A stretch of DNA of 51,951 nucleotides from Helicobacteraceae bacterium (GTDB lineage: Bacteria; Campylobacterota; Campylobacteria; Campylobacterales; Sulfurimonadaceae), in the NCBI GenBank assembly GCA_947498025.1, contig CANMJR010000021.1, forward strand, positions 1 through 51,951. The letters are read 5' to 3'. Numbering within the stretch: position 1 is the first letter of the stretch; every line of letters begins with the position of its first letter. The notes under the pieces were generated by a model. That model did not search any database. It was not told where the DNA came from and was given only the letters and a program-made list of their open reading frames with translations. The position numbers and the translations under genes were made by a program. Below are positions 3,759 to 48,511 of the stretch, in pieces.

Positions 3759-5261
3759 ATGAACATAAAAGATAAATTATTTAATTTATTTAAGTCACCG
3801 TCAGACGAATTTTATTCAGTTGAGGAAGAGCAAAAAAAGCGCAGAACGAGAGCCATTATTGCTGCTGTCGCTTTTATGCTTGGTCTCCCTGCTATCCCTG
3901 CGTTTATTGATGGTTCTGGAGCAGCATATGAAGCAATTAAAAACAACGCTAAGTTTGAAGATAAGAAAATAGAAAAGGAAGATATTAAACCTATTGATAC
4001 AGAGGTGAACAAACAGTCTCTTTGGAAAACAAAACAGGAAAGACGCACAGATGACCTAAAGCAAGAAATCGTGGATGTATCAAAAAAGACAGACATAGCA
4101 ATAGAAAAAGTTGAAAAGAGTGCAGTAGATACAAAAGTAGCTCTCGACCAAGTTGTAATAGACATCAACAAAATTGTGCAAACCAGCGCATCTGAAAATG
4201 CTAAACAGTTGGAGAGTTATGACGGCAAACTTTCTGATATTAAAAAAGACCTCATGGCTTACACTGATGAAAGCGTAAAAAACACCAGAAGAGGTTCGTT
4301 GAGCGGAACAGTAACCGCTCTTCCACAAGCTCCATTTATAGCGCAAAGCGACTCTAATGGTACTATCGGGGCAAGTATTCCTATGAGAGACCTTAGCGCA
4401 ACCCACCAAGAGCAAGAAGTTGAAATGGTAGAAAAAGAAGTTGAATATAGTATGGATAGCTCAGCTCAATCAACTTCAGAGATTTCCACGCTGGAGAGAT
4501 ATGACCAAAACGACAGCAAAGATTTGGGAGAGTTTATTATCCCAATGGGTGCGGCTAAAGGCGTCGTAGCAACTGGCGGTAATTTGAAAACACTAGGAAG
4601 CGGAGAGTCTAAACCAAAGTCAATATTCATAAAAATTGTTGACGATTTCATAAGCACTAACGACACAAGACTCTCAATGAAGGGTTGCGTAATGGAGGGT
4701 GGAGCAGTAGGTGATTTCGGCACCGGAATAGCGGAAGTAAGAATGAAGTCAATTCAATGTACGGCTATTGGGAGTGACGGACAGGAGTATTTAGCTGTGA
4801 GCGAAAAAGTTCAAGCTTGGGTCTTTGATGAAAGCAATTTATATGGAATCGAGAGCAGGGTCGTTACGAAAGAGGGGGAAATTTTCGCAAAATCTCTCCC
4901 CCTTGCCTTATTGAGCACTGCTATGAACATGGCGGTTGCATCGGCTCAAAACTCAGCAGTTTCAGCGAATAATGGAGGGGTTGCAACGTCATACTCCACA
5001 GGAGGAACAACAACAGTCCCTATGCAGGTTCCTGTGTCGCGCACTGTCACGGCAGAAACACAAACCATCATGGGCAAGATAACCGATTTATGGCTTAAAT
5101 ACCTAGACACATTAACTCCAATTGTTCAATACAGAGCAGGAAGAAAAGTAACTGTTGCATTTTCAGGGATAGTAAAAATGAAATGGCAAAAAGTTGATTT
5201 TTTCGATTCACAAGACCCAATAAATTTGAATGAGCCAAAGGAAGGAAGAAATGCTTTATAG
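3759..5261 (+). CDS. traB: TraB/VirB10-family conjugation core protein
   Basis: This 500-aa protein has a short cytoplasmic N-terminus, one membrane helix near residues 30-51, a charged coiled-coil stretch at about 70-165, and a C-terminal VirB10-like region. That region contains the paired cysteines seen in F-type TraB (MKGCVMEGG and SIQCTAIGSDG, about residues 308-335), followed by a hydrophobic segment near 380-400. TraB/VirB10 proteins span the periplasm and link the inner-membrane ATPases to the outer-membrane TraK/TraV ring. The next gene is TraV-like and overlaps the 3' end, as in F-type operons. Family assignment is firm; it lacks a long Pro-rich linker, which the coiled coil may replace. 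Confidence 0.85.
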   Translation: MNIKDKLFNLFKSPSDEFYSVEEEQKKRRTRAIIAAVAFMLGLPAIPAFIDGSGAAYEAIKNNAKFEDKKIEKEDIKPIDTEVNKQSLWKTKQERRTDDLKQEIVDVSKKTDIAIEKVEKSAVDTKVALDQVVIDINKIVQTSASENAKQLESYDGKLSDIKKDLMAYTDESVKNTRRGSLSGTVTALPQAPFIAQSDSNGTIGASIPMRDLSATHQEQEVEMVEKEVEYSMDSSAQSTSEISTLERYDQNDSKDLGEFIIPMGAAKGVVATGGNLKTLGSGESKPKSIFIKIVDDFISTNDTRLSMKGCVMEGGAVGDFGTGIAEVRMKSIQCTAIGSDGQEYLAVSEKVQAWVFDESNLYGIESRVVTKEGEIFAKSLPLALLSTAMNMAVASAQNSAVSANNGGVATSYSTGGTTTVPMQVPVSRTVTAETQTIMGKITDLWLKYLDTLTPIVQYRAGRKVTVAFSGIVKMKWQKVDFFDSQDPINLNEPKEGRNAL

Positions 5262-5529
5262 AGGACTTATAGTGGCTTTTTTGTTGCTATTGTTAAATGG
5301 ATGCTCATCAGTGATAGGATATTTCAGTATTGGAGAGCAGGAGACTTTTCAAGAGCTTTATGGAAAATCATATAAAAATTGTGGCGTAAACAGCTCATAT
5401 TCAGACCTATTGGAAGATACGGATGCAAATAGTAAGGATGCATATAAAAATTGTATTTTAAACCCACATAGGTCTTGGTTCAAGAAAACATTCAGTGGTG
5501 ACTATGAAGAAAGCGACATGAAAAAATGA
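5251..5529 (+). CDS. TraV-like outer-membrane lipoprotein
   Basis: This 92-aa lipoprotein has signal sequence LLLLLNGCSS with the lipobox cysteine near residue 18 from the chosen start. I chose the ATG at 5251 because AAGGAAGG lies just upstream; an earlier in-frame ATG at 5230 has no ribosome site and would spoil the signal peptide. Cys-containing motifs (KNCGVNSS, KNCILNP) and the position between TraB and TraC match TraV, which forms the outer-membrane pore ring with TraK and TraB. It overlaps the traB stop by 11 bases and the traC start by 4 bases (ATGA), which suggests translational coupling. TraV proteins vary widely, so the name depends on order. Confidence 0.68.
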   Translation: MLYRGLIVAFLLLLLNGCSSVIGYFSIGEQETFQELYGKSYKNCGVNSSYSDLLEDTDANSKDAYKNCILNPHRSWFKKTFSGDYEESDMKK

Positions 5530-8315
5530 GCAAATCCATAGGCGCAATGAGCATAAACATTGGGAAGAAAATACTTGAGATTTTATTAACCCCTACTGGG
5601 GCACTATCAAGAAAGATAGGTTTGAAGTCACAACACTACAAGACATTATATGGTGAAAGAAATCCTAGTGACTTTTTAAACTATAGAAGCTATATAAGAA
5701 ACGAGGGTGATAAATACGGCATCTACAATATGGCTAATTATAGAAAATCCTTTATTTTAGAGGTTAGCCCAGGGCCATATCTGGGAGAAGCGTTAGAAAA
5801 CACAATAAGAGGTCTCTTAAGCGCACTTACGATTGATGATATTGCTATACAGTTTACTACGTACGCAAGCAGTAATATTCAAGATTATATTAGTGCATAT
5901 GAAAAACACCATGACAATATGGAGCATCTCAATATTGACGGAAAAAGAGCAATTAGAGCGCTTTCTAAAAAAAAGATAGAGTATTACGAAAAGTGGACAA
6001 AAGAATCTATGGTTGGCTCTAATTCCGACTTAAGAGCAAGAAATCTTAGAAATTTAGTATCCATATCAGTAAACAAAAAACTCTCTAAAAAGAAAATTGA
6101 TTATTTACACTCTGTTGTAAGTAATGCTCTTGAATCTTTATTGCCAGTCGAGTTTGATGGGGAAAAGCTATTAACCATGGTTCAAGAGATTTTTAACCCA
6201 GTTAAAGAATCCTATAAATTTGAGGATATTGAAACTATTCCGTTAAATCAGATGATGATGTCCGGAACAAAGATTTCTCTCTCAAAAGATGAAGACCTCC
6301 TTAAAGATAATATATCGATAGATGATATATTTGAAAAAGATGGTGTTTTTAGGATTCAAAACACACACGTCAAAACATTCACAACAGAAAGTTTTCCAAG
6401 AAACACATCTCTTCAAGAAGTTCAAGGGGCTATTTTTGACCCACTAGGAAGACATTATCAAATAACCTTGCCTTGTAGATTTATAGCAACCATTACTATA
6501 GCATTTGACAATGTTAAAAAGGATGCCAAGTGGCAATCAAGCAAGGCGGGCTGGAATATTGGTTCATTGGCTTATTTATCGGCAACCGTTGAAGACAAGA
6601 AGCCGGAAATTAAACTAAGACGAGAAGAGTACAGAAGTATAGTGGAGGCAATTGAGGAGTATAGAGAATTCCCATTGCGGGCAATGATTTCATATACGCT
6701 GATTGATGAAGACAGACACAAGCTTGACACATATGGCGAATTACTGAAAAATAGATTTGAAGATTTATCATCGGGTTCGTGGATTTTAAAAGAAGAGAGT
6801 AAGCCGATGGTCTCTTTTTTGAGTCTTGTTTATAGTTTACCGGGGCACTACAGCAAGACCTTTAAGAATAAATTTCACAGATTTAAGATGCTATTCAAAG
6901 TAAATAATTCAAAGATTATTCCACTATATAGCGATTTCAAAGGTTTCGGAAAACCAACGATGCTCCTGTTCGGACGAACAGGACAGATGCAAACACTGTC
7001 AATGCATCCTTGTGACACAAATTCAAATTTCTCCTTAGTTGGGCCTCCGGGTACTGGAAAATCAACTCTTTTGAATGAGCTGATAATGTCCTCCTTAGAC
7101 ACAGGCGATGTTATTCGCTCTATTGACCTTGGTAACTCTCAAAAGAGAACCTGCGAACTTGCTGGAGGCCAATATGAAGAATTTAGTGCTGAAAGCAAAA
7201 AATGCCTTAACTTTTTTACAAACATCAGAACCGAATTCATCACGGACGATGGCGGGGTAGAGATGGAGGTTGTTGCTGCAGAAGAGCTAATAACTATTAT
7301 TCCTATGATTGGAAAGATGGCAGGGGTTAGCGTCTACACGGAATCGGATAAATTATCTGGAGTGACTGAACAGCTAAAAGAAAAACAGCTTCAAATTTTT
7401 CTTGAAAACGCCGTGCAAATAGCTTACGACAGAGAGGGCAGACAAGCGGGCATGCAAGAAGTTTATGAAGCTCTCTTGGATATCAGCAACAGATACAACA
7501 ATTCCAAACATGAGGAATTGGCATCATTGGCCTATGGTATTGCTGTGGCGATTGAAGATTATGTAAGGGTTGACTTAGGTGGAGAACGATTCAAACAGGG
7601 TAAATATTTTGAATACTACAACGGTGCAAATAATCTAGAGATAAACAAGGATTATTTTCTTTTAGAAATGGAAGCAATCAAGAAGAAATCTGCAGAGTTT
7701 GCAACCATTGTCACTATGGGTGTTTTACAAAAAATGGCGGAAGAGGCTTATTCAAGACAAGATGTTTTTAAGTGGTATCTTATTGATGAGGCATCAGACC
7801 CATTGAAAGATTTCCTCTTTGTGAAGTTCCTAGATAACTTCGGACTTAGAATTAGAAAATATGGCGGAGGCGTAGGAATAATTACTCAATTTTTAAGACA
7901 CTTTTTTGTCAACAACGAGGCGAAGTCGCTCTTTGATGCGATGAGTTTTAAAATCTTCTTAGAGCAAGATAAAGAGAATATAGAGCAGGCCGTAAACTCC
8001 GGAAAAGTATCGCTGAATGATTTTCAAGAAGCCTTAATGAAGTCCGTTAAAAAGAGGGGCAATGAATATTCCGAACTGATGGTTCTCCATAGAGGACAAA
8101 CAATGATATCTAGATTGAAACTAGACCCTTATTCTGCTTGGCTTTTTAGGTCAGATATGGATGGGAAAAAGAAAATCAAAGAAGTTAGAAATGCTTATAA
8201 TCTTGGAGAGCTAGAGGCTGTAGAGTTTCTAGTAAATGCTCAAGAAAACCCAGAGCTTGACGCTCAAGAAAATCTTGCACTTGTGCAATCAAGGGGAGAG
8301 AGTGGGACAGTTTGA
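5526..8315 (+). CDS. traC: TraC/VirB4-family conjugation ATPase
   Basis: The protein has 929 aa. The N-terminal half resembles the TraC F-type domain. The C-terminal half is a VirB4-type P-loop ATPase with Walker A GPPGTGKST near residue 506 and Walker B WYLIDEASDP near 750, followed by a QFLRHFF stretch in the sensor region. TraC is the cytoplasmic ATPase needed for pilus assembly and retraction and for powering the channel. The start overlaps the traV-like stop (ATGA), and the C-terminal end overlaps the next gene slightly. Length fits the family (about 800-900 aa). All nucleotide-binding motifs look intact. Confidence 0.9.
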   Translation: MSKSIGAMSINIGKKILEILLTPTGALSRKIGLKSQHYKTLYGERNPSDFLNYRSYIRNEGDKYGIYNMANYRKSFILEVSPGPYLGEALENTIRGLLSALTIDDIAIQFTTYASSNIQDYISAYEKHHDNMEHLNIDGKRAIRALSKKKIEYYEKWTKESMVGSNSDLRARNLRNLVSISVNKKLSKKKIDYLHSVVSNALESLLPVEFDGEKLLTMVQEIFNPVKESYKFEDIETIPLNQMMMSGTKISLSKDEDLLKDNISIDDIFEKDGVFRIQNTHVKTFTTESFPRNTSLQEVQGAIFDPLGRHYQITLPCRFIATITIAFDNVKKDAKWQSSKAGWNIGSLAYLSATVEDKKPEIKLRREEYRSIVEAIEEYREFPLRAMISYTLIDEDRHKLDTYGELLKNRFEDLSSGSWILKEESKPMVSFLSLVYSLPGHYSKTFKNKFHRFKMLFKVNNSKIIPLYSDFKGFGKPTMLLFGRTGQMQTLSMHPCDTNSNFSLVGPPGTGKSTLLNELIMSSLDTGDVIRSIDLGNSQKRTCELAGGQYEEFSAESKKCLNFFTNIRTEFITDDGGVEMEVVAAEELITIIPMIGKMAGVSVYTESDKLSGVTEQLKEKQLQIFLENAVQIAYDREGRQAGMQEVYEALLDISNRYNNSKHEELASLAYGIAVAIEDYVRVDLGGERFKQGKYFEYYNGANNLEINKDYFLLEMEAIKKKSAEFATIVTMGVLQKMAEEAYSRQDVFKWYLIDEASDPLKDFLFVKFLDNFGLRIRKYGGGVGIITQFLRHFFVNNEAKSLFDAMSFKIFLEQDKENIEQAVNSGKVSLNDFQEALMKSVKKRGNEYSELMVLHRGQTMISRLKLDPYSAWLFRSDMDGKKKIKEVRNAYNLGELEAVEFLVNAQENPELDAQENLALVQSRGESGTV

Positions 8316-10341
8316 TAAAATATACGAGTACGTTTTCGGACGCATAAAAGGAAGCCGCAAATATTCTGTTCCAAAGACCAGTCAAGCAAGAACTGAAGAA
8401 CTCTATAAAGTAATCACAGATCAAGTAAGAACTGAAAGAAAAATTGACGCAATGGAAGAAGATATCGTTTATAGATATAACATTAAAAGCGATAAAGATT
8501 ACGATGATTTTCTAGCAAGAGAAGACTTAGAGAAAGAGGTCCCAGAATATGTCGACCTAGTGGGCATATATAAAGAGATAATTTCTAAAAGAGTGATGCT
8601 TGAAGAGGAATTTTTTAATGTTAAAAAAGGAGTCTATTTAGGGCTAGGGGTTGACCTTGAAAAAATAGATTTGACAACACCAAAACAACCCGTATATATT
8701 CCTTGGCAGCATTGGGAAAACCACGCTCAAGTGTTAGGAACTACAAGATATGGAAAAACATATCTACTCGCTCTTATCGCCTACCAAATGATATTAAAGG
8801 GTTGGGATATAGTTCTCATCGACCCCAAAGGCGGCAAAAAACAAGAGCTTCTAAGCTGGATGTTTCAATTTGCGATGAAGACAGGAAGAACGGATGATTT
8901 GATTTTTTGTAATCCGGCATACACCAAATATTGCACTCTTTTAAATCCTCTATTTGGTATGAGTAATAGTGAGGTTTCTTCCGTGATTGCATTATTAAGC
9001 GAAGGCGACGGAGAGAAAAAAGATTCTTTCTTTTCTGATGTTGCTTTTATTGTTGTTTTGGGAATCACTACCTCACTGGAGTACCTTGAGAGAATAATGG
9101 ACCCGACGGGCGAAAAGGCAGAGATGCTAGAATTACAAGAGACTAAAAAATATTTTGACATGATGGAGTTGAGAGGCTCAAAACTTGAAGATTACAATGT
9201 GAAAACTAAAGTCGCTACTCCTGATGCGTCTGCTAGAATGAATCGACCTAGAGATAACCACTCAAGCAATGTTGGAAGCATAAATTTTAAATTCAACAGA
9301 AGTCTTATGACTTTTAGAGAAATTGAATATTACTCTAATTACGAAAACCTGCAAACACTTCTAGGATTCGTCAAAGGAACAGAGCCTCCGACCCCAGAAA
9401 ATTACTCAGAAAATGAGTATAAAAGAATAATCACACTACGAGAGGAAGCGCTCAGCCTATTAGGACATGTTGCAACTCTTGGAGAGTTTTATATGAAGAT
9501 AAGCATGTCTCTTACAGCACTTGTTGCCAAGCTGTCTACAGGAGAGATTGGAGAGTTGTTTTGCACAGTAAGAATTAATCCTGTTCTAAACAGAGTGTAT
9601 CGAGAAGATAAAGGCTTGATTGCAATAATTCAGCCAGCGCCTCTAAAGTTTCAAAAAACGTCAGACATGGTAAATAAGGTTTTCATAAAAATGTTTGAAT
9701 CTCTATTTGGAACCGTGAGCGTCACCGGTCGTGGATTCCAAAGAAGAATAGGATTTTTGATTGATGAGGCAAAAGTGGCACTCTTTCCAGGAATAGAAGA
9801 GATATACAATAAAGCCGGCGGTATGGGTATGACTATTATTACTTTTATGCAATCTGATAAAGATAGGATTTTGAAAGTAGGCGAAGTGGTTAGTGAAATC
9901 ATTGAGGACAACACAAATACTCATATATCTATGAAGGTAAACAACTTTGCTTCCAAAGAAAATATTGTAAAAAACTTTGGAACAAGAAGAATTCACAAAA
10001 GAAATACGATGGGTACGGATACCGGCACTAAGACAATGGTTATAACAGAAGAGGAGTATCTATTGGATACAACTGCGATTGACAGACTCGGAAAAGGGGA
10101 AGCATTCGTTTCGTCGTATGGCAAAAAATACCGTGTTAAATTTGCTTTTGTTGAACCTCCAGAGGGTGAGATAATAATGCCGGAGATAAAAGAAGAGGGT
10201 ATTTTAAGAAGCATAGTTGAAAAAGAGATAAATCTTGAGGAGATGAACTCATCTATTTCAAGAGCGGCCAAAGAAGAGCTTGGGGAATATGTTATGAATA
10301 GTTTTTCCACAGAAAGAGCAACAAGAAATGGAGCTATGTGA
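8302..10341 (+). CDS. TraD/TraG-like coupling ATPase without membrane anchor
   Basis: With the GTG at 8302, preceded by AAGGGGAG, the protein has 679 aa; an upstream in-frame ATG at 8236 has no ribosome site. It carries Walker A GTTRYGKT near residue 146, the IDPKGG motif after the first strand, and Walker B FLIDEAK near 485, followed by MTIITFMQS, typical of VirD4/TraD coupling proteins. These bring the DNA-relaxase complex to the secretion channel. No N-terminal transmembrane hairpin is visible, unlike F TraD and TrwB, so it must reach the membrane through a partner or act in the cytosol. It is tightly coupled to traC and to the downstream AAA+ gene. Confidence 0.8.
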   Translation: MGQFDKIYEYVFGRIKGSRKYSVPKTSQARTEELYKVITDQVRTERKIDAMEEDIVYRYNIKSDKDYDDFLAREDLEKEVPEYVDLVGIYKEIISKRVMLEEEFFNVKKGVYLGLGVDLEKIDLTTPKQPVYIPWQHWENHAQVLGTTRYGKTYLLALIAYQMILKGWDIVLIDPKGGKKQELLSWMFQFAMKTGRTDDLIFCNPAYTKYCTLLNPLFGMSNSEVSSVIALLSEGDGEKKDSFFSDVAFIVVLGITTSLEYLERIMDPTGEKAEMLELQETKKYFDMMELRGSKLEDYNVKTKVATPDASARMNRPRDNHSSNVGSINFKFNRSLMTFREIEYYSNYENLQTLLGFVKGTEPPTPENYSENEYKRIITLREEALSLLGHVATLGEFYMKISMSLTALVAKLSTGEIGELFCTVRINPVLNRVYREDKGLIAIIQPAPLKFQKTSDMVNKVFIKMFESLFGTVSVTGRGFQRRIGFLIDEAKVALFPGIEEIYNKAGGMGMTIITFMQSDKDRILKVGEVVSEIIEDNTNTHISMKVNNFASKENIVKNFGTRRIHKRNTMGTDTGTKTMVITEEEYLLDTTAIDRLGKGEAFVSSYGKKYRVKFAFVEPPEGEIIMPEIKEEGILRSIVEKEINLEEMNSSISRAAKEELGEYVMNSFSTERATRNGAM

Positions 10342-11663
10342 TGGCGTTAACCCAAGAAGAATATAAGCCAAAACTCAATGCTTTGATTGCTGATATAAAC
10401 AGCAAGTTTATAGAGAGGGACGAGCTCGCAAGAATTCTAGTGTTAACTGTGTTTAGCAAGCAGCACATATTTCTAATTGGTGAGCCGGGTGTTGGTAAGA
10501 CCGACATAACGAGCACTATTGCCTCCATGATAAGAAATACTACATTCTGGGAGAAGGTTGTCGACTATGATACCAAAAAGCACGAACTTTTTGGAGATGC
10601 GAGCATCCCTTATCTGGAATTGGATAAAAGTGAAACCATTCTAGGAAATCACTTCGTTTTTCTTGATGAGATGTTTAAGGCACCTTCAGAACCACTAAAT
10701 GCTTGTCTTCCTGTAATGAATGAGAGAGTATTTCAAGATAAGGGCAAAAAGCACAAGGTCGACTTATTAAGCATGTTTGGTGCATCAAACGAAATGCCAC
10801 ATGGAGAGAAGATAGCACCCTTTGATGACAGACTTATTTTCAGATATGACGTCTTAAGAATTCAAAAACCTGAAAACTTTATTCGCTTTGCCAAGAAAGA
10901 TTTTGATACAAGCCGTGTATTAAATGTTCAGTTTGATATCGAAGATTTAGATTTCGTGGGAGCACAATCAAAGCTTTTAAATGTGGATGATTTTTTCTTT
11001 ACAGAGTTTAATAATCTGAAAATGAAAATAGTGCAGTCGAGCATCAAAGTGAGTGATAGAAAGTTTGGTAGAGCTATAGACATTTTGAGGGTATCAGCTT
11101 TTTTAAACAATAGACAAACCATGGATTATTCAGATTTCTTCATATTAAACCATATAGCGTGGTCGAAAATAGAAGAGAAAAAAAGAATAAAGAAAATTAC
11201 ATATGAATATTGCTTTAGTTCCAAAGATGAAATAGATGCCGTCTTGATTGGAGGTCAAAAAGAGTTTAAAAAACTAGAAGGCGAGATGCAAGAGCAGCTT
11301 GCGGATTTTCTAAACTATAATTTTTCACAAGATGATTTTGGGCAAGTGTTAGAGTTCAAATTTAATGTATTGGTAGATACGACTACGGATAGCTTTTTAA
11401 AACAAATTGAAAAAATATGTGAACCGTTTTTTAAAATACAAGAGAGAAAAAAATTCGCAGATATGGTCGCAGAGCAGATAAGCAATAATATATTTGTACC
11501 GGATGTGAAAGATAGAACCTTTACTGTTGATATTGTTTCGCAGTACGAAGGGACTGTTTCAAATCTAGGAAGAGTATATGAAAAAATTAAACAATGGAGC
11601 GAGGATAATAAAGATTATTTCTCATTTCAGCAGCACTGTCTTTTAAATAGCAAAAGGTCATAA
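10341..11663 (+). CDS. MoxR/RavA-type AAA+ ATPase
   Basis: The chosen ATG at 10341 overlaps the previous stop as TGATG; a GTG one codon earlier is also possible. The 440-aa product has Walker A GEPGVGKT near residue 47, Walker B FVFLDEMFKA near 105, sensor 1 GASNEMP and an arginine-rich DDRLIFRYDV stretch. This is the MoxR/RavA pattern of chaperone-like AAA+ proteins, often paired with a von Willebrand A-domain protein. No VWA partner is seen here. Its place between the coupling ATPase and the topoisomerase-GGDEF gene suggests a role in assembly or remodelling of the transfer machinery, which is inference. Such a gene is not part of the standard F operon. Confidence 0.82.
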   Translation: MALTQEEYKPKLNALIADINSKFIERDELARILVLTVFSKQHIFLIGEPGVGKTDITSTIASMIRNTTFWEKVVDYDTKKHELFGDASIPYLELDKSETILGNHFVFLDEMFKAPSEPLNACLPVMNERVFQDKGKKHKVDLLSMFGASNEMPHGEKIAPFDDRLIFRYDVLRIQKPENFIRFAKKDFDTSRVLNVQFDIEDLDFVGAQSKLLNVDDFFFTEFNNLKMKIVQSSIKVSDRKFGRAIDILRVSAFLNNRQTMDYSDFFILNHIAWSKIEEKKRIKKITYEYCFSSKDEIDAVLIGGQKEFKKLEGEMQEQLADFLNYNFSQDDFGQVLEFKFNVLVDTTTDSFLKQIEKICEPFFKIQERKKFADMVAEQISNNIFVPDVKDRTFTVDIVSQYEGTVSNLGRVYEKIKQWSEDNKDYFSFQQHCLLNSKRS

Positions 11664-11665
11664 GT

Positions 11666-14600
11666 ATGGATGCGACAAAAAACTTTGACACAATTATGAT
11701 TGTTGATGAAGATAAGAAAAAAGAGTTCCTTCTTCGCTCAGTAGATGACACTGTTTTTGTTCTCTCTATCGAGAGCATAATAAAGAGTGTGGATGTATGT
11801 CTCTCAGACGCCTTTAGCGGTATCAAATTTATGCAGAAATACATATCTAATGCTAGTGTAACATATGTGGTTCCTTGTGATCTCAACAGCGACAACAGCC
11901 TTCTATTAGCTGTACTGGAATATATAGGCGTTGAAGAGTATTACTCGCTCGAATATGACATTAATGACACCAAGGTAGTCAATGATGCTCTTAAGCACGC
12001 AAGATTAGTAAGCAGAAATGAGGTAAGGGCGCTATATGCCGAATATGCAGTTATAAAATTCTTCAAGTGCAGAATAACAAAAGTCCTTCAGTGGTACTTC
12101 GATAAAGAAGAACTTGCCACCAACAGTGAAATTGCTGAGCTAAATGTAACTCTTCCCGCACTTACGGCACTAAGCAAGATAGTAATAACAGAAGAGAGTA
12201 TAGAAAACTTTGTACCGGAAGAGTTTCAAAAAGTCGGAATAGTTTATCAATATGCTGATATTCAATTTACCGTAAGAAACAGCAAGAAGTTTGGAAAAAA
12301 ATTAGAGAGCGAACTAGAGCTGTTTATAAGACAATTAAACAATCCTAAAAATCTCCACATAGTAAAAGATTTCAAAAGAGAGGCTAAGAATCTAAAGCCA
12401 CCGCCGCCTCTCACTATAAACACACTTGAAAGAGTCGGTGTTACCAGATTCGGCTTCTCTATAGATTACTTAGTGAAAGTAGCAACAGAGCTAAGAAAAG
12501 GAGAGTTTACTATTGCCGGTAAATACATAGGCCCGCTTATTACGCCAATATATACGACAACGCAAAAAATTAATTCAGATGCTACATTAGAGATAAACAA
12601 TCTGATCATTAATACATATGGAAGTAAGTATATCTCTCCGGGCAATAGAGAGTATGCAAAAACAGATGAAGATAAAAATAGCCATAAAGAAGCAATCCGT
12701 CCTCTCTATTTTAGTGAAGAGTTTTTTCCAAAGAACATAAGACCCTATTTATCAGAAGACCAGTTTAAAATATACAGCGTAATCTTCTATCGCTCAATAG
12801 CAGCCTTTATGGCGGATGCAGTAATAAATGTAAGCGAATTGATTGTGGCAGTGGAGGGTATAGAGTTCAAGGCAGTCTCTAAAATAGTAAGCAAAGATGA
12901 AATCGGCAATGTCTATGATGGTTGGTTAAAAATCGGAACGTTCCTTGGAAGCGACGAAGCGGATCAAATCAACGAGAATACCGTTCTACCAGAATCGCTC
13001 TATCCAGGGCAAGAGTTTACCGGAGAGTCAAGAGAGATACTAGAGTTTAAGACATTCACTTCCAACGAGAGAAATCCTGCAAGATGGGGGGAGGGGAGAC
13101 TAAAGGCAAGTCTAATCAAGGATGGCTTAGTTGCAGAACTTAGCGACTCTTCCAGTATTAATCAGCTCAAAGAACAAAAGCTGGCATTCCCGGCACATGG
13201 AACTCTTCACCCATCCGGATTAGGAAAAAAAGTGTACTACACACTTGAGGAGTATGCTGATTGGATTTTCAATGAAGATTTCGCGAAAGCTTATGTCGAC
13301 AGTCTTGATATGATTGCTGAGGGCAACTATACAAAAGAGTCCATGATGGAAAGCTTCTATCTAAATGAGGGGATATTCAAAAAGAATATAGGCTATAAAG
13401 AATCAATCAATAGAAATGCTCCTGAAGAGTGGTTAGTCAACAAGGCAAAAAGAGTAGCGAACCAAATAGGGGCGACCCTTCCGGATACGACATTAGGCAG
13501 TAGAAACCTTCTCTTTGCATACATAGAGCAAAACAATCCAGAGTTAGAGAAGCTTGGCAAATGTGTAGACTGTAGAAACGGAGAGATTTACGAGCAGGAT
13601 AAGGGCTTTTTTTGCAACAATAGTAATTGCAACTTTGCACTATGGAAAGACGGCATTGATAGGTTTTTTAAATATTTCAAAAAACACATTCCAATGCATG
13701 ATTATAAAGAGGTCGTAAGAGTAATATTATCAAATAAAAAGTGCCAAATAGACGGGCTTTATAATAACAAGGAAGATAAAAACTTTAGTGCATACATAAC
13801 AATCAGTCTTGATGATAAATACAGAAAATGGAAGATAGATTTTTATACAGAGAAGAGAGCGACAGCCGAAGAGGAGCCGGCACTTGGTGACGATAGTAGC
13901 CAGAGTGAAGATGGATATGAAGCTAGAGAGAGTGACTATATAGAAGAAGATAGAGACAGAGAAGATAATAGATATGAAGACCATGATGAGAGTAGTTATG
14001 AGCACTTTGAAAATGTTTACGAAAATGAGGTTAATGATGCTTTCTACGCGGCACAAGAGTATGAGCAGACAGATAGTGTTTCACTGAGTGAAATTAACAA
14101 TGCCTTTGATGTCGCACAGGAGCAAGCAGAGAGCGTACAGCCTGTATGCGAAAAAGAAATAATGGCAAGAGAAAATGAAGAGCTGTTGAGGAAAATAAAG
14201 AGAGGAGAAGAGGAGAAGAGACTGCTAGCTGACAAGGCGACAAAGGATGAACTCACAAGAGCCTATAATAAGGGTTGTTTTATCGATGATATGAACAAGC
14301 ACTGGGCAAGTGGAAGCTCGGATTCTCTCGTTCTTGCTTTCGTTGACGCTGACAAATTTAAAAATGTAAACGATACATATGGTCACAAGTGCGGAGATAC
14401 GGTGCTGGTGGAACTCTCAAATTTGATGCACGATTCAATAAGAAGCTTAAATGCAAAACTCTATCGATATGGTGGGGAAGAGTTCTGCATAGTATCGCAA
14501 GAGAGCCAAGAGGAGAGCTTACAACTCTTTGCGGGAATTAGAAAAGCCATGGAAAGCAAAGTCATCCATTTTGAAGAGCATTCAATTACTGTCACGATTA

Positions 14601-15661
14601 GTATCGGGGTTGCTTTTGGAATCAACAAGAAACTTCCGTCAGACCTAATTAAGAAAGCCGACTCATTTGTTTATATGGCAAAAGAGCAGGGAAGAAACAG
14701 AATGCTAAGTGAGACTATGTTGGAGATAAAAAATCAAATCCTCAAAGAGAGAATTGAATCAATAGATAAGGAGAAAGCGGCACTCTACTCTAAGGCCACA
14801 ATAGATGATATGACAAAGGCATACAATCGAGCACAATTTAATATTGATATGGAGGTAATAGAAGAGGAAGGTTTGCTGCCACGGGCGACATTGGCATTCA
14901 TAGATGCTGATAAATTTAAAAATGTAAATGATACATATGGTCATGAGTGTGGGGATATGGTATTGATTACACTTGTCAGCACAATACATGGATGTATAGA
15001 AGGGTTAGAATTAAAACTCTATCGATACGGCGGGGAAGAGTTCTGCATTGTATCGCTTGAGAGCCAAGAGAAGAGCTTAAAAGTCTTTGAAGAGATTAGA
15101 AGAGCTATGGAGAGCAAAGTCATTCATTACGAAGAGCATTCAATTACTGTCACGATTAGTATCGGGGTTGCTTTTGGAGAAGATGAGGTAACAAGTAGTG
15201 GATTGACCGAGAAAGCAGATTTGATGGTCTTTGCAGCAAAAGACCAAGGAAGAAACAGAATTGTTACTACAAGGGTGGTAGAGATGACTTGTGATATTGA
15301 GGATAAACCTAAGCAGAATGATGAGTCGCTAGAATCATTTTGGAAAGAGCACTCAAATATAGGACGCACTTTTGCAATTCTTCCTTTAATTGAAGACTAT
15401 GAGATAATTAAATTTATTGATGAGGCTGAGGTAAGCTATAGACACTATGCTGATTGTACATTTTTAGTGATGAAGATTGATATGAGGCAAGGCACAGCAC
15501 TGATTGAAAATATCAATAATCTTTTCCCGCAAGCCCCATTAGCATTTGGTGTTGTAGTTTCGCTCGAAGTTTTTACCTATGATGAGCAAATTATTCAATA
15601 CACCTTGAAGCTCTATGAAGATGCAAAAGAAAAAAACAAATTTATATATAAGAGGATGTAA
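11666..15661 (+). CDS. degenerate type IA topoisomerase fused to two GGDEF domains
   Basis: The first ~700 of 1331 aa follow a type IA topoisomerase. There is a Toprim-like start (MIVDEDKKKE; then VVPCDLNSD where DxDxE is expected), the tyrosine region LITPIYTTTQ (Y296), SHKEAIRP at 339-346, PARWGEGRL at 471-479, and a zinc ribbon with C633, C636, C650 and C655. An acidic linker (about 730-800) and coiled coil (about 830-855) lead to two GGDEF domains. Each has DADKFKNVND and an intact GGEEF (about 936 and 1122), with no RxxD inhibitory site. A ~130-aa tail follows. GGEEF enzymes normally make cyclic-di-GMP. The topoisomerase part looks catalytically weakened and may only bind DNA. I know of no such fusion. 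Confidence 0.82.
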   Translation: MDATKNFDTIMIVDEDKKKEFLLRSVDDTVFVLSIESIIKSVDVCLSDAFSGIKFMQKYISNASVTYVVPCDLNSDNSLLLAVLEYIGVEEYYSLEYDINDTKVVNDALKHARLVSRNEVRALYAEYAVIKFFKCRITKVLQWYFDKEELATNSEIAELNVTLPALTALSKIVITEESIENFVPEEFQKVGIVYQYADIQFTVRNSKKFGKKLESELELFIRQLNNPKNLHIVKDFKREAKNLKPPPPLTINTLERVGVTRFGFSIDYLVKVATELRKGEFTIAGKYIGPLITPIYTTTQKINSDATLEINNLIINTYGSKYISPGNREYAKTDEDKNSHKEAIRPLYFSEEFFPKNIRPYLSEDQFKIYSVIFYRSIAAFMADAVINVSELIVAVEGIEFKAVSKIVSKDEIGNVYDGWLKIGTFLGSDEADQINENTVLPESLYPGQEFTGESREILEFKTFTSNERNPARWGEGRLKASLIKDGLVAELSDSSSINQLKEQKLAFPAHGTLHPSGLGKKVYYTLEEYADWIFNEDFAKAYVDSLDMIAEGNYTKESMMESFYLNEGIFKKNIGYKESINRNAPEEWLVNKAKRVANQIGATLPDTTLGSRNLLFAYIEQNNPELEKLGKCVDCRNGEIYEQDKGFFCNNSNCNFALWKDGIDRFFKYFKKHIPMHDYKEVVRVILSNKKCQIDGLYNNKEDKNFSAYITISLDDKYRKWKIDFYTEKRATAEEEPALGDDSSQSEDGYEARESDYIEEDRDREDNRYEDHDESSYEHFENVYENEVNDAFYAAQEYEQTDSVSLSEINNAFDVAQEQAESVQPVCEKEIMARENEELLRKIKRGEEEKRLLADKATKDELTRAYNKGCFIDDMNKHWASGSSDSLVLAFVDADKFKNVNDTYGHKCGDTVLVELSNLMHDSIRSLNAKLYRYGGEEFCIVSQESQEESLQLFAGIRKAMESKVIHFEEHSITVTISIGVAFGINKKLPSDLIKKADSFVYMAKEQGRNRMLSETMLEIKNQILKERIESIDKEKAALYSKATIDDMTKAYNRAQFNIDMEVIEEEGLLPRATLAFIDADKFKNVNDTYGHECGDMVLITLVSTIHGCIEGLELKLYRYGGEEFCIVSLESQEKSLKVFEEIRRAMESKVIHYEEHSITVTISIGVAFGEDEVTSSGLTEKADLMVFAAKDQGRNRIVTTRVVEMTCDIEDKPKQNDESLESFWKEHSNIGRTFAILPLIEDYEIIKFIDEAEVSYRHYADCTFLVMKIDMRQGTALIENINNLFPQAPLAFGVVVSLEVFTYDEQIIQYTLKLYEDAKEKNKFIYKRM

Positions 15662-15664: not shown

Positions 15665-16042
15665 ATGCGAAACATAACAATATCACTAATCGACGATTCA
15701 CCAAGACAACTAGAACAAATAAAGAGCTTCATAGAGATGGCAGCTATGGGAGTGTGTGAAATAAAAATAAATACCATAAGCGATATAGAAAATTTGCAAA
15801 ATCATATGCCTTTGCTTCTGGAGAGCGACTATATTTTCTGTGACTTGCATTTTAAGGACACCGAGATGACAGGAGATCGTCTCCTGCATTTTATTAGCTT
15901 AGAAGGGTTTTCCGGTAAAGCTTATATTTTAAGCGGAGACCTCGTAGCAATAGATAGCAATATTGACATGTCGATGCGCTATGTGTCAAAGATGAATATC
16001 ATGAAGCCCGCTTTTCTTCTTAAATTATTAGAGATAGAGTAA
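15665..16042 (+). CDS. single-domain response regulator receiver
   Basis: This 125-aa protein is a stand-alone receiver domain. It has the acidic pair (IDDSP, residues 9-10), a likely phospho-accepting Asp in FCDLHF (about residue 59), the switch serine in ILSGD and a lysine in VSKMN. It starts 3 bases after the topoisomerase-GGDEF stop and ends 2 bases before the next ATPase, so it belongs to the transfer operon. No output domain is present. It may pass phosphate-dependent control to the neighbouring GGDEF protein or ATPase. The kinase-like gene at 20864 is the obvious candidate partner. Confidence 0.8.
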   Translation: MRNITISLIDDSPRQLEQIKSFIEMAAMGVCEIKINTISDIENLQNHMPLLLESDYIFCDLHFKDTEMTGDRLLHFISLEGFSGKAYILSGDLVAIDSNIDMSMRYVSKMNIMKPAFLLKLLEIE

Positions 16043-16044: not shown

Positions 16045-17493
16045 ATGATAGAGATTCATAATCCTAACCTCGCAAGAACCATCCCAATAGAGGATATGTA
16101 CAAAGGGAAGGCGTTTATTCTAGGAAAAGGCTTTACGAAGCCATCAATGGTTTTTGAGAGAGACTTTGACAAGATGCCTAACGCCCATGTGGCAATTACC
16201 GGAACAAGCGGGAGCGGAAAAACTACCCTTGTGCTTCCTTTGATAACCTACTATGCAAATCTCGGCAAAATTGTCCATGTAATTGACCCTAAAAAAGATG
16301 GGATGAGAACAGACGGAGAGAATCTGTTTTTATTCACCGGCAGAAACAGTCCGTACAGCGTACCAGTATTTGAGTTTGACCACCACAAGGAAAATGGTGG
16401 CATCCACTCTGAGGCGAAGGAGATAGTAAGACTTCTAAAAAAATATTATTTCCCCTCAGCGGGGGAGCACCAAACAGGAGTGCTTCTTCAGTTGATAATT
16501 GATACGTATCGAATGAAAGGATTCATGGAAGAAGACGATACCACTTGGGATAAAGGCTACGATTTAAACAACAGGGATGAGAAGAGAGAGTGGCTTTTAA
16601 CTCTGCCGACCATGGAGGATTTGTTTGATAATCTGCTTGCCCTAATTGAGGTGTGTAAATTTAAAGAAGAAGATGATTTCGGGAAGTTTCATACAATCAA
16701 TAAACAGAAGATTGAAAGACTCCAAGAGCAAGAGGAAAATGACGACAAAGATAACGAAAGCAAGATACTCGCTGTCCAGGAAACAATGATTGAGACATAC
16801 AAGCAATATGTTAACGGTCTTGTGAGAAAAGGTGTTGAAAGAATAAAAATTGCCGAGGATATGTTTAAAGATGTCAGTATGGATTTTTATAATGACCCGA
16901 AAGTGCAAAGAGCACTTGATGGACTAAAGCTAAACCTAAAGCTTGTTGTTAATAGTGGAGTCTTTGGCTCAAAAATTCCACCCGTCACAAGAGGGGTTAA
17001 TAGGTATGACATTTCCGGGCTGCCTCCTGAGACACAATGTTTTATAACTGAGATAATTGCAAACAAGCTTGATAGGTCATTACGCTTTAGGGGAGAGTAT
17101 CTCGATTTGCCTAAAGCATACAGAGATATAAGAGGAGCAAAGTACGATAATGTTTTAGTGATAGATGAAGCCCAGCTGGTTTTGCCCACCGGCAGAGATG
17201 CAAAAGATTCAACAAAAGGTCTTATAAGAATTGCAGCAGAGGGAAGAGGGAGAGGCTTGGCGCTAGTTCTTCTTACTCAATCACCAAACAATATACCAGA
17301 AATTATGCTGAGAAATATAGGAACGAAAATAATACTCAAAACAGAGCCTGTAGATACTAAAAGTGTTTGTAGGTTGTTGGGGGTTAATAAAACTGAACTT
17401 GACAGAATATACGATACCTTTGGGACGTGTATGCTGAATGTTGATAAAGATTATGAAACAGTAGCATTGCCATGGGTGAAGATAAGAGCTTGA
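16045..17493 (+). CDS. second TraD/HerA-like P-loop ATPase
   Basis: The 482-aa protein has Walker A GTSGSGKTT at about residue 53, an IDPKKDG motif after the next strand, Walker B VLVIDEAQ near 373, and the later RGRGLALVLLTQSP sensor stretch. This matches the FtsK/HerA/VirD4 class of hexameric DNA or protein pumps. No membrane segment is present. It is the last gene of the first operon. It could be a second coupling protein, a DNA-processing motor, or a HerA-like partner of the topoisomerase protein. The insertion at about 210-240 is very acidic and probably flexible. Confidence 0.8.
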   Translation: MIEIHNPNLARTIPIEDMYKGKAFILGKGFTKPSMVFERDFDKMPNAHVAITGTSGSGKTTLVLPLITYYANLGKIVHVIDPKKDGMRTDGENLFLFTGRNSPYSVPVFEFDHHKENGGIHSEAKEIVRLLKKYYFPSAGEHQTGVLLQLIIDTYRMKGFMEEDDTTWDKGYDLNNRDEKREWLLTLPTMEDLFDNLLALIEVCKFKEEDDFGKFHTINKQKIERLQEQEENDDKDNESKILAVQETMIETYKQYVNGLVRKGVERIKIAEDMFKDVSMDFYNDPKVQRALDGLKLNLKLVVNSGVFGSKIPPVTRGVNRYDISGLPPETQCFITEIIANKLDRSLRFRGEYLDLPKAYRDIRGAKYDNVLVIDEAQLVLPTGRDAKDSTKGLIRIAAEGRGRGLALVLLTQSPNNIPEIMLRNIGTKIILKTEPVDTKSVCRLLGVNKTELDRIYDTFGTCMLNVDKDYETVALPWVKIRA

Positions 17494-20468: not shown

Positions 20469-20858
20469 ATGAGAAGAGTTTTAATAGTAGATGATAACAA
20501 AGAAGTAGTAAGGGCACTAAGCGATATGCTAGAAATAAACGACATAATGTCTGACGCTATCCATAATTCCAATGATTTTGCAACACTGCTATCTACAACA
20601 AATTTTAAGGGCTTATCAGCAATAATTATGGACTACAACCTTGAAGATACACGAAACGGGGTAGCACTCCTAGTGGATGCTGATGCCAAAGGCGCTCTTT
20701 TTAAAAAAGAGGTTTTTTTTTACAGTGGAAATATTGACTACATAAAAAAAGAAGAAAGAGACTTTTTAATAAATAAAAAAATTAGAGTTTTTAGTAAAAC
20801 GCAAATGTCCAGTATGGTTGATGATATAGTAATTAAAATATCTCAACAAAGAGCGTAG
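20469..20858 (+). CDS. single-domain response regulator receiver (copy 1)
   Basis: The 129-aa receiver has the acidic pair VDDN (residues 8-9), the phospho-acceptor Asp in IIMDYNLED, the switch serine in FYSGN and the lysine in SKTQM. AAAAAGGAAAAAC precedes the ATG. It is clearly paralogous to the receiver at 23644 (same MDYNLE, FYSGN and KTQMS motifs), and the two flank the kinase-like gene. No output domain is present. It probably takes part in a phosphorelay or acts as a phosphate sink. It starts about 110 bases after the exported-protein genes and 5 bases before the kinase. Confidence 0.85.
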   Translation: MRRVLIVDDNKEVVRALSDMLEINDIMSDAIHNSNDFATLLSTTNFKGLSAIIMDYNLEDTRNGVALLVDADAKGALFKKEVFFYSGNIDYIKKEERDFLINKKIRVFSKTQMSSMVDDIVIKISQQRA

Positions 20859-23620: not shown

Positions 23621-23643
23621 AACACCAAACAGGAGAAAAAAAT

Positions 23644-24027
23644 ATGCTAATGGTTTTAATTGTGGATGATAACAAAAATATGACAGCGGCGCTTGAGGAT
23701 ATTTTGGACTTAGAAGATATAAAAAGCAAAGCGGTTTATGACCCGGAAACCTTTTTAAGATTAATGGATGATAAGGATTTTTTCAACTTCTCTATCATTA
23801 TTATGGATTACAATCTCGAAGCCCCTCTAAATGGAATAAATCTACTAATGAGGGCTGACGAAAGGAATCTATTACATGACAAAAAAGTCTATTTCTATAG
23901 TGGAAATGTTAATTACATAAATGGAGACGAAAGAGAATTTCTTGCGGATAGGAAAATAACTATTTTTGAAAAAACCCAAATGTCTGAGATGATAAGCTCA
24001 ATCATAAAAGATGTCACAAAAGAATGA
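23644..24027 (+). CDS. single-domain response regulator receiver (copy 2)
   Basis: The start at 23644 is chosen because AGGAGA lies 8 bases upstream; a GTG at 23608 inside the kinase gene has no such site. The 127-aa product has VDDN, phospho-acceptor MDYNLE, FYSGN and EKTQMS, and is the paralogue of the receiver at 20469. The phosphorylation residues look intact. It overlaps the HD-GYP gene by ATGA, so the two are probably translated together. It may switch the phosphodiesterase in trans, as the phosphodiesterase has no receiver of its own. Confidence 0.85.
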   Translation: MLMVLIVDDNKNMTAALEDILDLEDIKSKAVYDPETFLRLMDDKDFFNFSIIIMDYNLEAPLNGINLLMRADERNLLHDKKVYFYSGNVNYINGDEREFLADRKITIFEKTQMSEMISSIIKDVTKE

Positions 24028-25556
24028 GAGTATTTTTTGGAAACAGGAAGATTTCAGAGGCTTTTAATCATTTAAAAATTTCCAATAAGATAAATTTTAG
24101 TCTATACAGCTCGTTTGTGATTCTATTGGTGCTGTTTTGGGGGATTCATGGGCAGTATAGTAAAATGGAGACAGAATATAAAGAGATACTAGATAATTCT
24201 AATGATTTTTTGCGCTGTAATCAAGAACTTGTTCGCAAGCTTAACATATTGTTTTCGGAAAATATTGCTTATAGCAGGCAGCACACAGGCAAAAAGCCAG
24301 TACTAAATAGCGATTGCGGTGCTTTATTATTTCATACACAAGAGGGCGACAACCTAAGCAAGCTGTTAAAAAACAACAATATCATGGAGCTTGAAAAAAA
24401 AGTAAAGCAGGGCGTGGAATCATTTTTAGAAACCTCTAAAAACATTCACGATAGCAGACCTTCAGACAGTATGAATGCAGAGGAGATAATCGCATTGCAC
24501 TCTGCACTATCTACTATTTACGACAACATAGAAAGCATCGAAAAAGAGACAAAAAAAGTACACAGTGCCTATATGGATAAACACGAAGCAGGGGCTGAAT
24601 CTTTTAAATATTCAGCACTGATTATTATCTTTTTGTCTTTTGGTGTTTTATTTTATATAAATAGAAAAATAGCAATTTCAATAGTTGAGAATCTAGAGTC
24701 TCTTAATGAAAGTGTAGAATCATTTTTTAATTTCATCAGAAAGAAAGAAAGAAACATAGAAACTATTCAATTGAATTCCAGTGATGAAATAGTGGCAATC
24801 ACTGAAACAATCAATAAGAATATAGTAACAGTAAGAAAAATAATTGATGACGAGAGGGAGTCAAAAGAAAAGTTAGAATCCCTAACTAATTCACTTGTTG
24901 AAAGAGTTGCGTTAGCAACATTAGAAAATATGAAAGCGTATAAAGAAATGGAAAATACACAAAGAGAAATGGTCTTAATCCTTGGCGCCATAGTAGAGGA
25001 GCGCTCAGACGAGACATCTAAACATGTTGTAAGAGTAGCAGAATATTCAATGTTGCTAGGCAGGCTTTTGGGTTTATCCGAAAAGGATTGTTATGAAATA
25101 AAACATGCCTCTCCAATGCATGACGTCGGCAAAATTGGCATACCAGACAGTATCCTAAATAAAGAGGGTCTATTAACAGAGTGTGAATATGTAACGATGA
25201 AAACGCACAGCTGTATAGGCTATGAGATTTTAAGACATAGTGAAAAATCCATTTTAAAAGCTGCAGCAGTAATTGCGCATGAGCACCATGAGAAGTATGA
25301 TGGAACCGGCTATCCTCGTGGTATAAAAGGGGAGGATATTCATATCTTTGCTAGAATTACGGCTGTCGCCGATGTTTTTGATGCTTTACTCTCTGAGCGA
25401 AGATATAAAAACGCATGGCTACTTGATGATGTGTTGGAATACCTTCAAGAACAAAAAAGCAAGCAGTTTGACCCAAAAATTGTTGATATTTTCTTAAGTA
25501 ATCTCAACTTATTTTTAAATGCAAGAGAAAGCATTGATTCAAAGACAGCAGCGTGA
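24024..25556 (+). CDS. membrane sensor with HD-GYP cyclic-di-GMP phosphodiesterase domain
   Basis: The 510-aa protein has a membrane helix near residues 25-40, a mostly helical periplasmic sensor (about 42-190), a second helix near 195-215, a HAMP-like/coiled region, and an HD-GYP domain at about 310-490. Catalytic motifs are complete: HDVGKIGIPD, HxxxGYEIL, AHEHHEKYDGTGYP and ARITAVADVFDAL. HD-GYP enzymes break down cyclic-di-GMP to pGpG or GMP. It ends the signalling operon. The stop codon lies at the edge of the IS200/IS605 right end, so the last residues may be altered by that insertion. Confidence 0.9.
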   Translation: MRVFFGNRKISEAFNHLKISNKINFSLYSSFVILLVLFWGIHGQYSKMETEYKEILDNSNDFLRCNQELVRKLNILFSENIAYSRQHTGKKPVLNSDCGALLFHTQEGDNLSKLLKNNNIMELEKKVKQGVESFLETSKNIHDSRPSDSMNAEEIIALHSALSTIYDNIESIEKETKKVHSAYMDKHEAGAESFKYSALIIIFLSFGVLFYINRKIAISIVENLESLNESVESFFNFIRKKERNIETIQLNSSDEIVAITETINKNIVTVRKIIDDERESKEKLESLTNSLVERVALATLENMKAYKEMENTQREMVLILGAIVEERSDETSKHVVRVAEYSMLLGRLLGLSEKDCYEIKHASPMHDVGKIGIPDSILNKEGLLTECEYVTMKTHSCIGYEILRHSEKSILKAAAVIAHEHHEKYDGTGYPRGIKGEDIHIFARITAVADVFDALLSERRYKNAWLLDDVLEYLQEQKSKQFDPKIVDIFLSNLNLFLNARESIDSKTAA

Positions 25557-47201: not shown

Positions 47202-47227
47202 TTTTGTGCGGTTGCTACATAATATCG
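47202..47227 (-). repeat. right terminal inverted repeat
   Basis: 26 bp, exact reverse complement of 43101-43126. A fortuitous GTG at 47206 lies inside it and is in frame with the receptor fragment. Confidence 0.92.
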
Positions 47228-48510: not shown

Positions 48511-48511
48511 C

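Follow-up and report, generated by a model that had tools for sequence, protein, structure and literature searches.

A topoisomerase-derived protein with two GGDEF domains encoded among conjugation genes in the Campylobacterota

Why should a protein resembling a type IA topoisomerase carry two putative diguanylate cyclase domains and be encoded among genes for conjugative DNA transfer? The question arose from a first-pass annotation of a 51,951 nucleotide stretch of DNA from a Helicobacteraceae bacterium, here called the window, which placed a type IA topoisomerase, a zinc ribbon and two GGDEF domains in one reading frame of a conjugation operon. That domain order is borne out by sequence comparison, Pfam searches and structure prediction (Table 1). 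The annotation also named TraE of RP4 as an example of a topoisomerase carried by a conjugative element.

Table 1. Features of the fusion gene and its neighbours in the window
Feature	Position	Strand	Basis or remark
TraB/VirB10-like protein	3759..5261	+	family scores below curated cut-offs
TraC/VirB4-type ATPase, without reported EAL	5526..8315	+	Pfam above cut-off
TraD-type coupling protein	8236..10341	+	Pfam above cut-off
MoxR/RavA-type AAA ATPase	10338..11663	+	homologues behind TraD in L032, L033, L083
Fusion gene, 1331 aa: pseudo-topoisomerase IA, zinc ribbon, acidic linker, GGDEF1, GGDEF2, tail	11666..15661	+
TOPRIM-like domain, residues 7-113	11684..12004	+	acidic catalytic residues lost; fold retained in model
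Type IA topoisomerase gate domains, residues 114-579	12005..13402	+	Pfam Topoisom_bac, model, structure match
Pro294 codon, column of catalytic tyrosine	12545..12547	+	alignments
Zinc ribbon C633-C636-C650-C655	13562..13630	+	invariant in family alignments
Acidic linker, about residues 735-830	13868..14155	+	sequence
GGDEF1, residues 859-1012, with catalytic motifs	14240..14701	+	Pfam and alignment
GGDEF2, about residues 1044-1200, tandem duplicate of GGDEF1	14795..15265	+	Pfam, alignments, tree
C-terminal tail, residues 1201-1331	15266..15658	+	poor model
Receiver-like small protein	15665..16042	+	weak Response_reg, E 0.025, below cut-off
HerA/DUF87-like ATPase, conserved partner of topoisomerase-like gene	16045..17493	+
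HD-GYP protein (HDVGK, HHE, GYP), candidate c-di-GMP phosphodiesterase	24024..25556	+	motifs in sequence

The frame starts with ATG and encodes a single chain without internal stops. It contains the motifs SHKEAIRP and PARWGEGRL and a CxxC...C...C ribbon, whose four cysteines show no variation across nine aligned rows of the family described below and are also present in the tenth member, G625b. The assembly is a draft of 102 contigs, which might raise the suspicion of an assembly or frame artefact uniting two genes. However, besides the stop-free chain, the fusion recurs with one GGDEF domain in three other Campylobacterota genomes, which together encode four such proteins: P. ostreae (L037), G625, which carries two (L077 and L078), and G171 (L010). 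These further fusions rule out an assembly error, and we attach virtually no weight to an artefact of any kind.

The N-terminal part was matched by Pfam Topoisom_bac (residues 168-561, E 6e-31). Pfam Toprim matched the P. ostreae relative (E 7e-18); in the window protein it gave no match even with E values of up to 1 allowed. In the predicted structure, residues 4-579 adopt a type IA topoisomerase fold, as the first-pass annotation had anticipated, with E. coli TopA (1ecl) aligning over 512 residues at Z 26.2 and 6z2b matching the TOPRIM part at Z 9.5. The toroidal arrangement of TOPRIM and gate domains was recovered with Z 19.5-27.6 over 46 topoisomerase and reverse gyrase rows, two of which were 30-kDa fragments, although the type IA fold is partly expected because the model input held 46 topoisomerase rows beside the window protein. 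By sequence the protein is closer to topoisomerase I (2gai, E 3e-17) than to topoisomerase III (1d6m, E 0.01). The host genome also encodes an ordinary TopA on contig C19, the fusion gene being an additional gene. Further along the chain, pLDDT falls below 50 in residues 728-745, up to which the linker was modelled; it is 87-98 over most of GGDEF2 and 31-55 in the tail, where the model is too poor to read and a third, degenerate GGDEF domain was considered.

A "DNA topology enzyme" joined to GGDEF domains had been proposed; the fusion stands, but an enzyme is not supported for this protein. The column of the catalytic tyrosine is occupied by Pro294 in three alignments. Tyr296, which had been taken as the landmark, aligns to a conserved Arg column two residues past the nucleophile. 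Moreover, the TOPRIM Glu is replaced by Asp14, and C71, L73 and S75 stand in place of the D, D and E of the DxDxE motif. To work as a topoisomerase still, the protein would need a rebuilt metal site and a nucleophile in Tyr296 or some other residue. The complete model fold and the proximity of Tyr296 to the usual position would fit such an enzyme, as would the best alternative alignment, a gapless register that gives D-x-N-x-D at DxDxE. However, six other family members lacking the tyrosine carry Leu, Ser, Ser, Glu, Asn and Ser at that column, with no tyrosine near it in the family alignment, the window protein's conserved Arg and TOPRIM Glu are changed as well, and three members have lost the TOPRIM domain. 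Because the catalytic residues are lost, we consider an active topoisomerase very improbable, and the window protein is better read, on its sequence, as a topoisomerase-derived pseudoenzyme serving as a scaffold with two cyclase domains.

The topoisomerase parts of the family form a single clade with support of 100/100 against 12 other topoisomerases. The family has ten members, that of the window included. Three members retain an intact topoisomerase together with GGDEF, two are dead with GGDEF, two are dead without it, and the remaining three lack both TOPRIM and GGDEF; judged by their sequences they form a decay series. The seven members lacking the tyrosine constitute a single clade (80/96), which gives moderate support for one single loss. 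The alignments and trees support a history in which an ancestral, intact topoisomerase I acquired a C-terminal GGDEF domain, and in which the window lineage lost the strand-cleavage residues, retained the clamp and zinc ribbon and duplicated the GGDEF domain. GGDEF is missing from 5 of the 10 members, and c-di-GMP synthesis on this protein must therefore be dispensable for the core role of the gene.

This stepwise loss of tyrosine, TOPRIM and GGDEF across members could also reflect a gene in decay, in which loss of topoisomerase activity came first, the remainder now drifting the same way. Against this, all ten frames are open and long, seven members keep the gene's place before the HerA-like ATPase, and pN lies below pS both between GGDEF1 and GGDEF2 (0.26 versus 0.61) and between G636 and G549 (0.29 versus 0.77), although synonymous sites in both comparisons are close to saturation or already saturated. 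We consider such drift improbable.

Relatives were sought in several searches. Scans of genome contigs with a few short peptide patterns yielded no relative when the patterns came from a single sequence, and P. ostreae as the sole relative when they came from an alignment. A scan of viral contigs with a three-row family alignment found no relative, rows from further viral-contig scans being used to deepen the structure alignments, and PLSDB plasmids held no near-identical DNA. At a cut-off of 1e-25, matches occurred in 20 of 398 genomes; 17 of these (E 1e-25 to 1e-31) were assigned to ordinary TopA and used only as TopA rows. Two further searches gave many matches (386 of 397 and 200 of 228), again mostly ordinary TopA. 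Among 104 G164-family genomes, a P. ostreae query at 1e-15 matched one, at 100% and taken as P. ostreae itself, and this search was not sensitive because it missed the known pAMYT member. A further match, G573 (E 3e-20), has the appearance of an eleventh member and is not counted among the ten.

The GGDEF domains present a different picture. Pfam GGDEF matched two stretches (E 6e-66, 221.7 bits versus a curated cut-off of 23.8), and YRYGGEEF occurs twice. Both copies carry GGEEF and FxDADKFKNVNDTYGHxCGD, including what we take to be the metal-site Asp and the substrate Asn/Asp motifs, and both appear catalytically intact as putative c-di-GMP synthases. In the alignment, the RxxD I-site is absent from what is presumably its usual place relative to GGDEF, leaving I-site control unsupported. 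The GGDEF domains of the fusions form one clade (100/98) against 30 others, of which the window genome supplied 27. As 44 other places in that genome match the GGDEF part, a signal made locally would face competition from a global c-di-GMP pool.

The surrounding genes agree with the conjugation operon originally proposed. TraC and TraD score above Pfam cut-offs and lie beside MoxR-type and HerA-like ATPases, and the TraB-like protein (TrbI E 2e-6, below cut-off) is supported by tblastn matches to TrbI/TraB genes of relatives. The TraB, TraC and TraD homologues share one gene row as in F-type (MPF_F) systems, the TraB-like assignment being below curated cut-offs, and the operon's partner genes are conserved in relatives. 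The TraD frame overlaps TraC by 80 bases, and its true start probably lies downstream of 8236. TraH and TraU families gave no match in the draft genome, the E. coli control matching, nor did a pAMYT TraU query; the element may therefore be incomplete or divergent, and TraH and TraU may themselves be divergent or outside the draft assembly. About 8 kb downstream of the fusion gene lies a two-component-like cassette with an HD-GYP protein, named from HDVGK, HHE and GYP, which we take to be the motifs of that family. Neither PilZ nor EAL appeared among the matches listed for 32 distinct window proteins (one list giving the best 25 of 30 families).

All three sister elements examined encode TraC-EAL fusions that score above cut-off (G171, E 2e-23; pAMYT, E 4e-20; G076, E 3e-15). 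In each, Asn replaces the second Asp of DDFG and the Glu of AExVE is missing; this EAL is degenerate by sequence and likely a receptor domain. Candidate EAL phosphodiesterases are encoded by the relatives' elements, whereas the window has the HD-GYP protein instead.

We tentatively favour an account in which the fusion serves as a DNA-clamp scaffold and brings a c-di-GMP synthase to the conjugation machine. The clamp would hold DNA at, or dock on, the adjoining TraC, TraD, MoxR and HerA-like ATPases, thereby positioning the cyclase, which the two GGDEF domains may form by pairing within one chain. Effectors of the same machine, such as the degenerate EAL on TraC of the sister elements, would sense the local c-di-GMP, and phosphodiesterases encoded by the element itself would degrade it (HD-GYP in the window, an EAL protein in relatives), with pilus and DNA-transfer activity licensed or paused by DNA occupancy. 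The coupling of DNA handling to second-messenger synthesis proposed in the first-pass annotation remains plausible, and the TraC EAL of the sister elements adds support. The HD-GYP protein counts for such a local circuit; points against it are the window's own TraC, lacking EAL in Pfam, the lack of PilZ or EAL among the matches listed for the window proteins, the five family members without GGDEF, the many other GGDEF-like places in the genome and the missing TraH and TraU matches. More speculatively, the retired topoisomerase might act as a DNA-occupancy sensor that switches the attached cyclase, its output being read in sister elements by the TraC/VirB4 motor through the non-catalytic EAL; we hold this to be possible rather than likely, and if true it would link DNA engagement and pilus or motor activity via a second messenger within one apparatus.

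Alternatively, the GGDEF domains may feed the general c-di-GMP pool, favouring an attached, mating-friendly donor, with the topoisomerase part an anchor or relic and no local coupling; cyclases borne by SXT/R391 elements similarly contribute to c-di-GMP signalling of their hosts. Intact cyclase motifs lacking the I-site would suit this, as would the downstream HD-GYP cassette and the separate hotspot 3 cyclases of three SXT/R391 ICEs described in PMC2791158. However, the window cyclase is fused inside the transfer gene row rather than being separate cargo, and related elements place EAL on TraC itself; we judge a purely global role somewhat unlikely.

Direct action of second messengers on a conjugation apparatus thereby becomes testable, with a putative synthase on a transfer-row protein and a likely receptor domain on the TraC motor of sister elements. 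The fusion suggests that conjugative gene transfer is tied to bacterial lifestyle signalling. Moreover, a topoisomerase appears to have given up catalysis for a partner role with its fold preserved, along a path documented by intact relatives that are still extant. In the accessible open-access texts we found no description of topoisomerase-GGDEF or VirB4/TraC-EAL fusions.

Among known systems, bacterial TopA shares with the window protein the predicted fold over residues 4-579, the gate domains and the C-terminal zinc ribbon, whereas the window protein has altered the tyrosine, the Arg that follows it and the acidic TOPRIM residues and adds a C-terminal GGDEF pair. Diguanylate cyclases of the PleD/DgcA type share the GGEEF, metal-site Asp and Asn motifs and a score well above the Pfam cut-off, but the window pair sits in tandem on a topoisomerase-derived protein without the I-site motif at the usual place. 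Polyvalent proteins of mobile elements likewise combine GGDEF with DNA-related enzymes, a topoisomerase-GGDEF fusion not being described in the available part of that source (PMC5512222). SXT/R391 elements also supply their own c-di-GMP synthesis (Bordeleau et al. 2010, as cited in PMC2791158 and PMC4542580), but there the cyclase is a separate cargo gene in hotspot 3, whereas that of the window is fused within the tra gene row. A related arrangement occurs in pTHEAM01, from another phylum, in which GGDEF, EAL, TraD-type (TraM-recognition) and topA genes lie in a row within the transfer region, an analogy that counts for the scaffold account; its genes are separate, however, and its TopA retains the catalytic motifs and falls outside the family clade.

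The frame at 11666–15661 proposed in the first-pass annotation was borne out as an ATG-initiated gene for a protein of 1331 aa. The window spans one complete contig (G000:C21); the draft genome to which it belongs measures 2.93 Mb and falls in the order of Malaciobacter mytili, and hence in Campylobacterota. The proposed composition also held: Topoisom_bac and both GGDEF domains exceeded their Pfam cut-offs by a wide margin; no Toprim domain was reported by Pfam for this protein, and its score against the NCBIfam model topA_bact, 136 bits, fell well below the cut-off of 456. The structure prediction that had been suggested was run with AlphaFold2 on residues 1–745 and yielded a model with mean pLDDT 82.9 and pTM 0.71. 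Residues 4–579 matched type IA topoisomerases and reverse gyrases (46 rows, Z 19.5–27.6), including E. coli TopA (1ecl; Z 26.2, rmsd 4.5, 512 aligned), a fold that was partly to be expected because the alignment used, with 46 other sequences, contained many true topoisomerases. The N-terminus resembled TOPRIM proteins (four rows, Z 9.1–9.5), among them 6z2b over residues 7–113.

The topoisomerase part appears, from the model and the aligned residues, to have the fold but not the chemistry. Catalytic columns were transferred by alignment from the intact P. ostreae relative, in which the following residues are the catalytic ones. The nucleophile Tyr309 corresponds to Pro294 and Arg311 to Tyr296, and therefore the Y296 landmark of the first-pass annotation does not lie at the nucleophile's place; the change from Tyr to Pro was also seen when phmmer aligned the protein to TopA of Thermotoga and of E. 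coli. TOPRIM Glu8 is replaced by Asp14, and Asp82/Asp84/Glu86 by Cys71/Leu73/Ser75 or, with a one-residue register shift, Asp72/Asn74/Asp76. His356 aligned with Lys341 in one alignment and His340 in another, and Lys18 and Arg345 are unchanged in the window protein. A separate, ordinary TopA is encoded on contig C19 of the same genome.

The GGDEF part looks active. GGDEF1 and GGDEF2 both carry FxDADKFKNVNDTYGHxCGD and YRYGGEEF, the catalytic motifs of such domains, and inspection of the two copies revealed no RxxD at the usual inhibitory position. They are 58% identical, are sisters in the tree (99/95, or 97/90 with fewer rows) and differ with a pN (0.26) less than half of pS (0.61): the pair is a tandem duplication maintained by selection and no assembly repeat. 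With two GGDEFs on one chain, a single protein could supply the dimeric active unit by itself. In a tree with 30 other GGDEFs, 27 of which come from the window genome, the six fusion GGDEFs group as a single clade (100/98), and closer GGDEFs could exist beyond this sample.

Ten family members were analysed, including that of the window and omitting a further match, G573.

Members of the topoisomerase-like family (G, genome; C, contig; pAMYT, plasmid of Malaciobacter mytili)
Member	Length	Topoisomerase part	GGDEF
P. ostreae	985 aa from ATG	catalytic residues intact	one
G625 C378	980 aa	catalytic residues intact	one
G625 C357	890 aa	catalytic residues intact	one
Window	1331 aa	residues changed	two
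G171	978 aa from ATG	residues changed	one
pAMYT	808 aa	residues changed	without
G631	881 aa	residues changed	without
G636, G549, G076	644–657 aa	without TOPRIM	without

The search advised for the same fusion in other Campylobacterota thus recovered it in P. ostreae, twice in G625 and in G171. The catalytic tyrosine is retained in three of the ten. By Pfam, Topoisom_bac exceeded the cut-off in all ten and GGDEF in five, with none reported for the other five; Toprim did so in the three intact members only, G171 falling below (20.0 vs 23.1 bits) and the remaining six having no Toprim reported. In a tree with 12 other topoisomerases the family forms a single clade (100/100); the Persephonella branch in this tree is long, and the composition of both pAMYT and Thermovibrio is odd. 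Support is moderate (80/96) for a clade of the seven members lacking the tyrosine, and the closest kin of the window topoisomerase part is pAMYT (99/98). In the simplest history, a single GGDEF fusion onto an active topoisomerase would have been followed by one loss of the tyrosine; GGDEF, whose label changes at least twice on the tree, and TOPRIM would have been lost later, and the lineage of the window would have duplicated its GGDEF. In all six pairs compared, nonsynonymous change was lower than synonymous change, with synonymous sites near or at saturation. Among 228 genomes of the window's family, 7 matched the zinc-ribbon profile (eight places, G573 included), as did 1 of the 44 genomes in the family of G171; in 398 genomes sampled across the order, there were two strong matches besides the window, G171 and G164, the latter taken to be the genome carrying pAMYT.

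TraC, TraD, MoxR and the topoisomerase-like gene are consecutive in the window, G171 and G076; pAMYT has the first three together and the topoisomerase-like gene elsewhere. Behind the topoisomerase-like gene comes a HerA/DUF87-like ATPase gene in P. ostreae, G625 C378, pAMYT, G636, G549 and G076 and also in the window, where a small receiver-like gene lies between the two; no HerA-like match was found beside it in G171, G631 or the short contig G625 C357. The window genome contains TraB-like, TraC and TraD genes; a Pfam search across the entire draft found neither TraH nor TraU, and the element is therefore perhaps incomplete, or else divergent.

Features of the window and of related elements (L, extracted locus)
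Feature	Position	Strand	Remark
1011-aa protein, contig's left end	61–3096	+	no Pfam match; may be C-terminal part of a TraG-like protein, from a position before TraB/TraC
Receiver protein, 918-aa protein, receiver protein (one receiver below Pfam cut-off)	20469–20858, 20864–23620, 23608–24027		918-aa protein histidine-kinase-like, with two histidine-kinase-type ATPase stretches
HD-GYP protein	24024–25556	+	with preceding row, compact two-component/c-di-GMP cassette downstream of tra genes
TnpB-like (Cas12f1-like TNB domain), adjoining IS200-type Y1 transposase (E 1e-41)	25657–27021, 27018–27434	-	IS200/IS605-type element
Tyrosine-recombinase integrase	28234–29502	-	Phage_integrase E 1e-20; possibly that of the element
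IS1595-family transposase	43871–44887	-	
Chemoreceptor signalling domain with zinc-binding CZB domain, then ankyrin-repeat protein	47206–48510, 48419–49384	+	
VirB4/TraC ATPases with C-terminal EAL	L033:10681–14151, L032:26282–29773, L083:484–3897		three Campylobacterota elements
Adjacent GGDEF, EAL, TraD-type and topA genes	L030:9191–13857		pTHEAM01, Thermovibrio plasmid

Further c-di-GMP components accompany these elements. Pfam reported a C-terminal EAL domain on TraC in all three sister elements examined (G171, pAMYT and G076) and none on the window's own TraC. In all three, the DDFG motif has Asn in place of its second Asp and the AExVE segment lacks its Glu; both the DDFG Asp and the AExVE Glu are kept in a GGDEF-EAL protein encoded inside the tra genes of pAMYT and in a stand-alone EAL protein encoded directly after the ATPase gene of G076. 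In known EAL proteins, loss of such residues points to binding and not hydrolysis, which suggests by analogy that the TraC domains bind c-di-GMP rather than hydrolyse it and are probably non-catalytic. G625 C378 carries a second GGDEF gene after its ATPase gene. The pTHEAM01 gene row associates the same functions in another phylum, and its TopA falls outside the ten-member family.

The predicted fold, residue loss, fusion ancestry and gene neighbours of the window protein find support in these analyses. From known families, its GGDEF domains would be expected to make c-di-GMP and its topoisomerase-derived clamp still to hold DNA; conceivably, the protein docks at the transfer ATPases, DNA controls the attached cyclase and TraC reads the c-di-GMP signal. 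Since half of the family is without GGDEF, the core role of the topoisomerase-like protein cannot, on domain content, be c-di-GMP synthesis alone.

No description of topoisomerase-GGDEF or VirB4/TraC-EAL fusions was found in the portions searched of the open-access literature, including parts of PMC4542580, PMC2791158, PMC5512222 and PMC7824862. Cyclases on conjugative elements are already known from SXT/R391, according to PMC4542580 and PMC2791158, and it is therefore not new for a conjugative element to make c-di-GMP; what appears new is that the synthesis is placed on a pseudoenzyme encoded within the transfer gene row.
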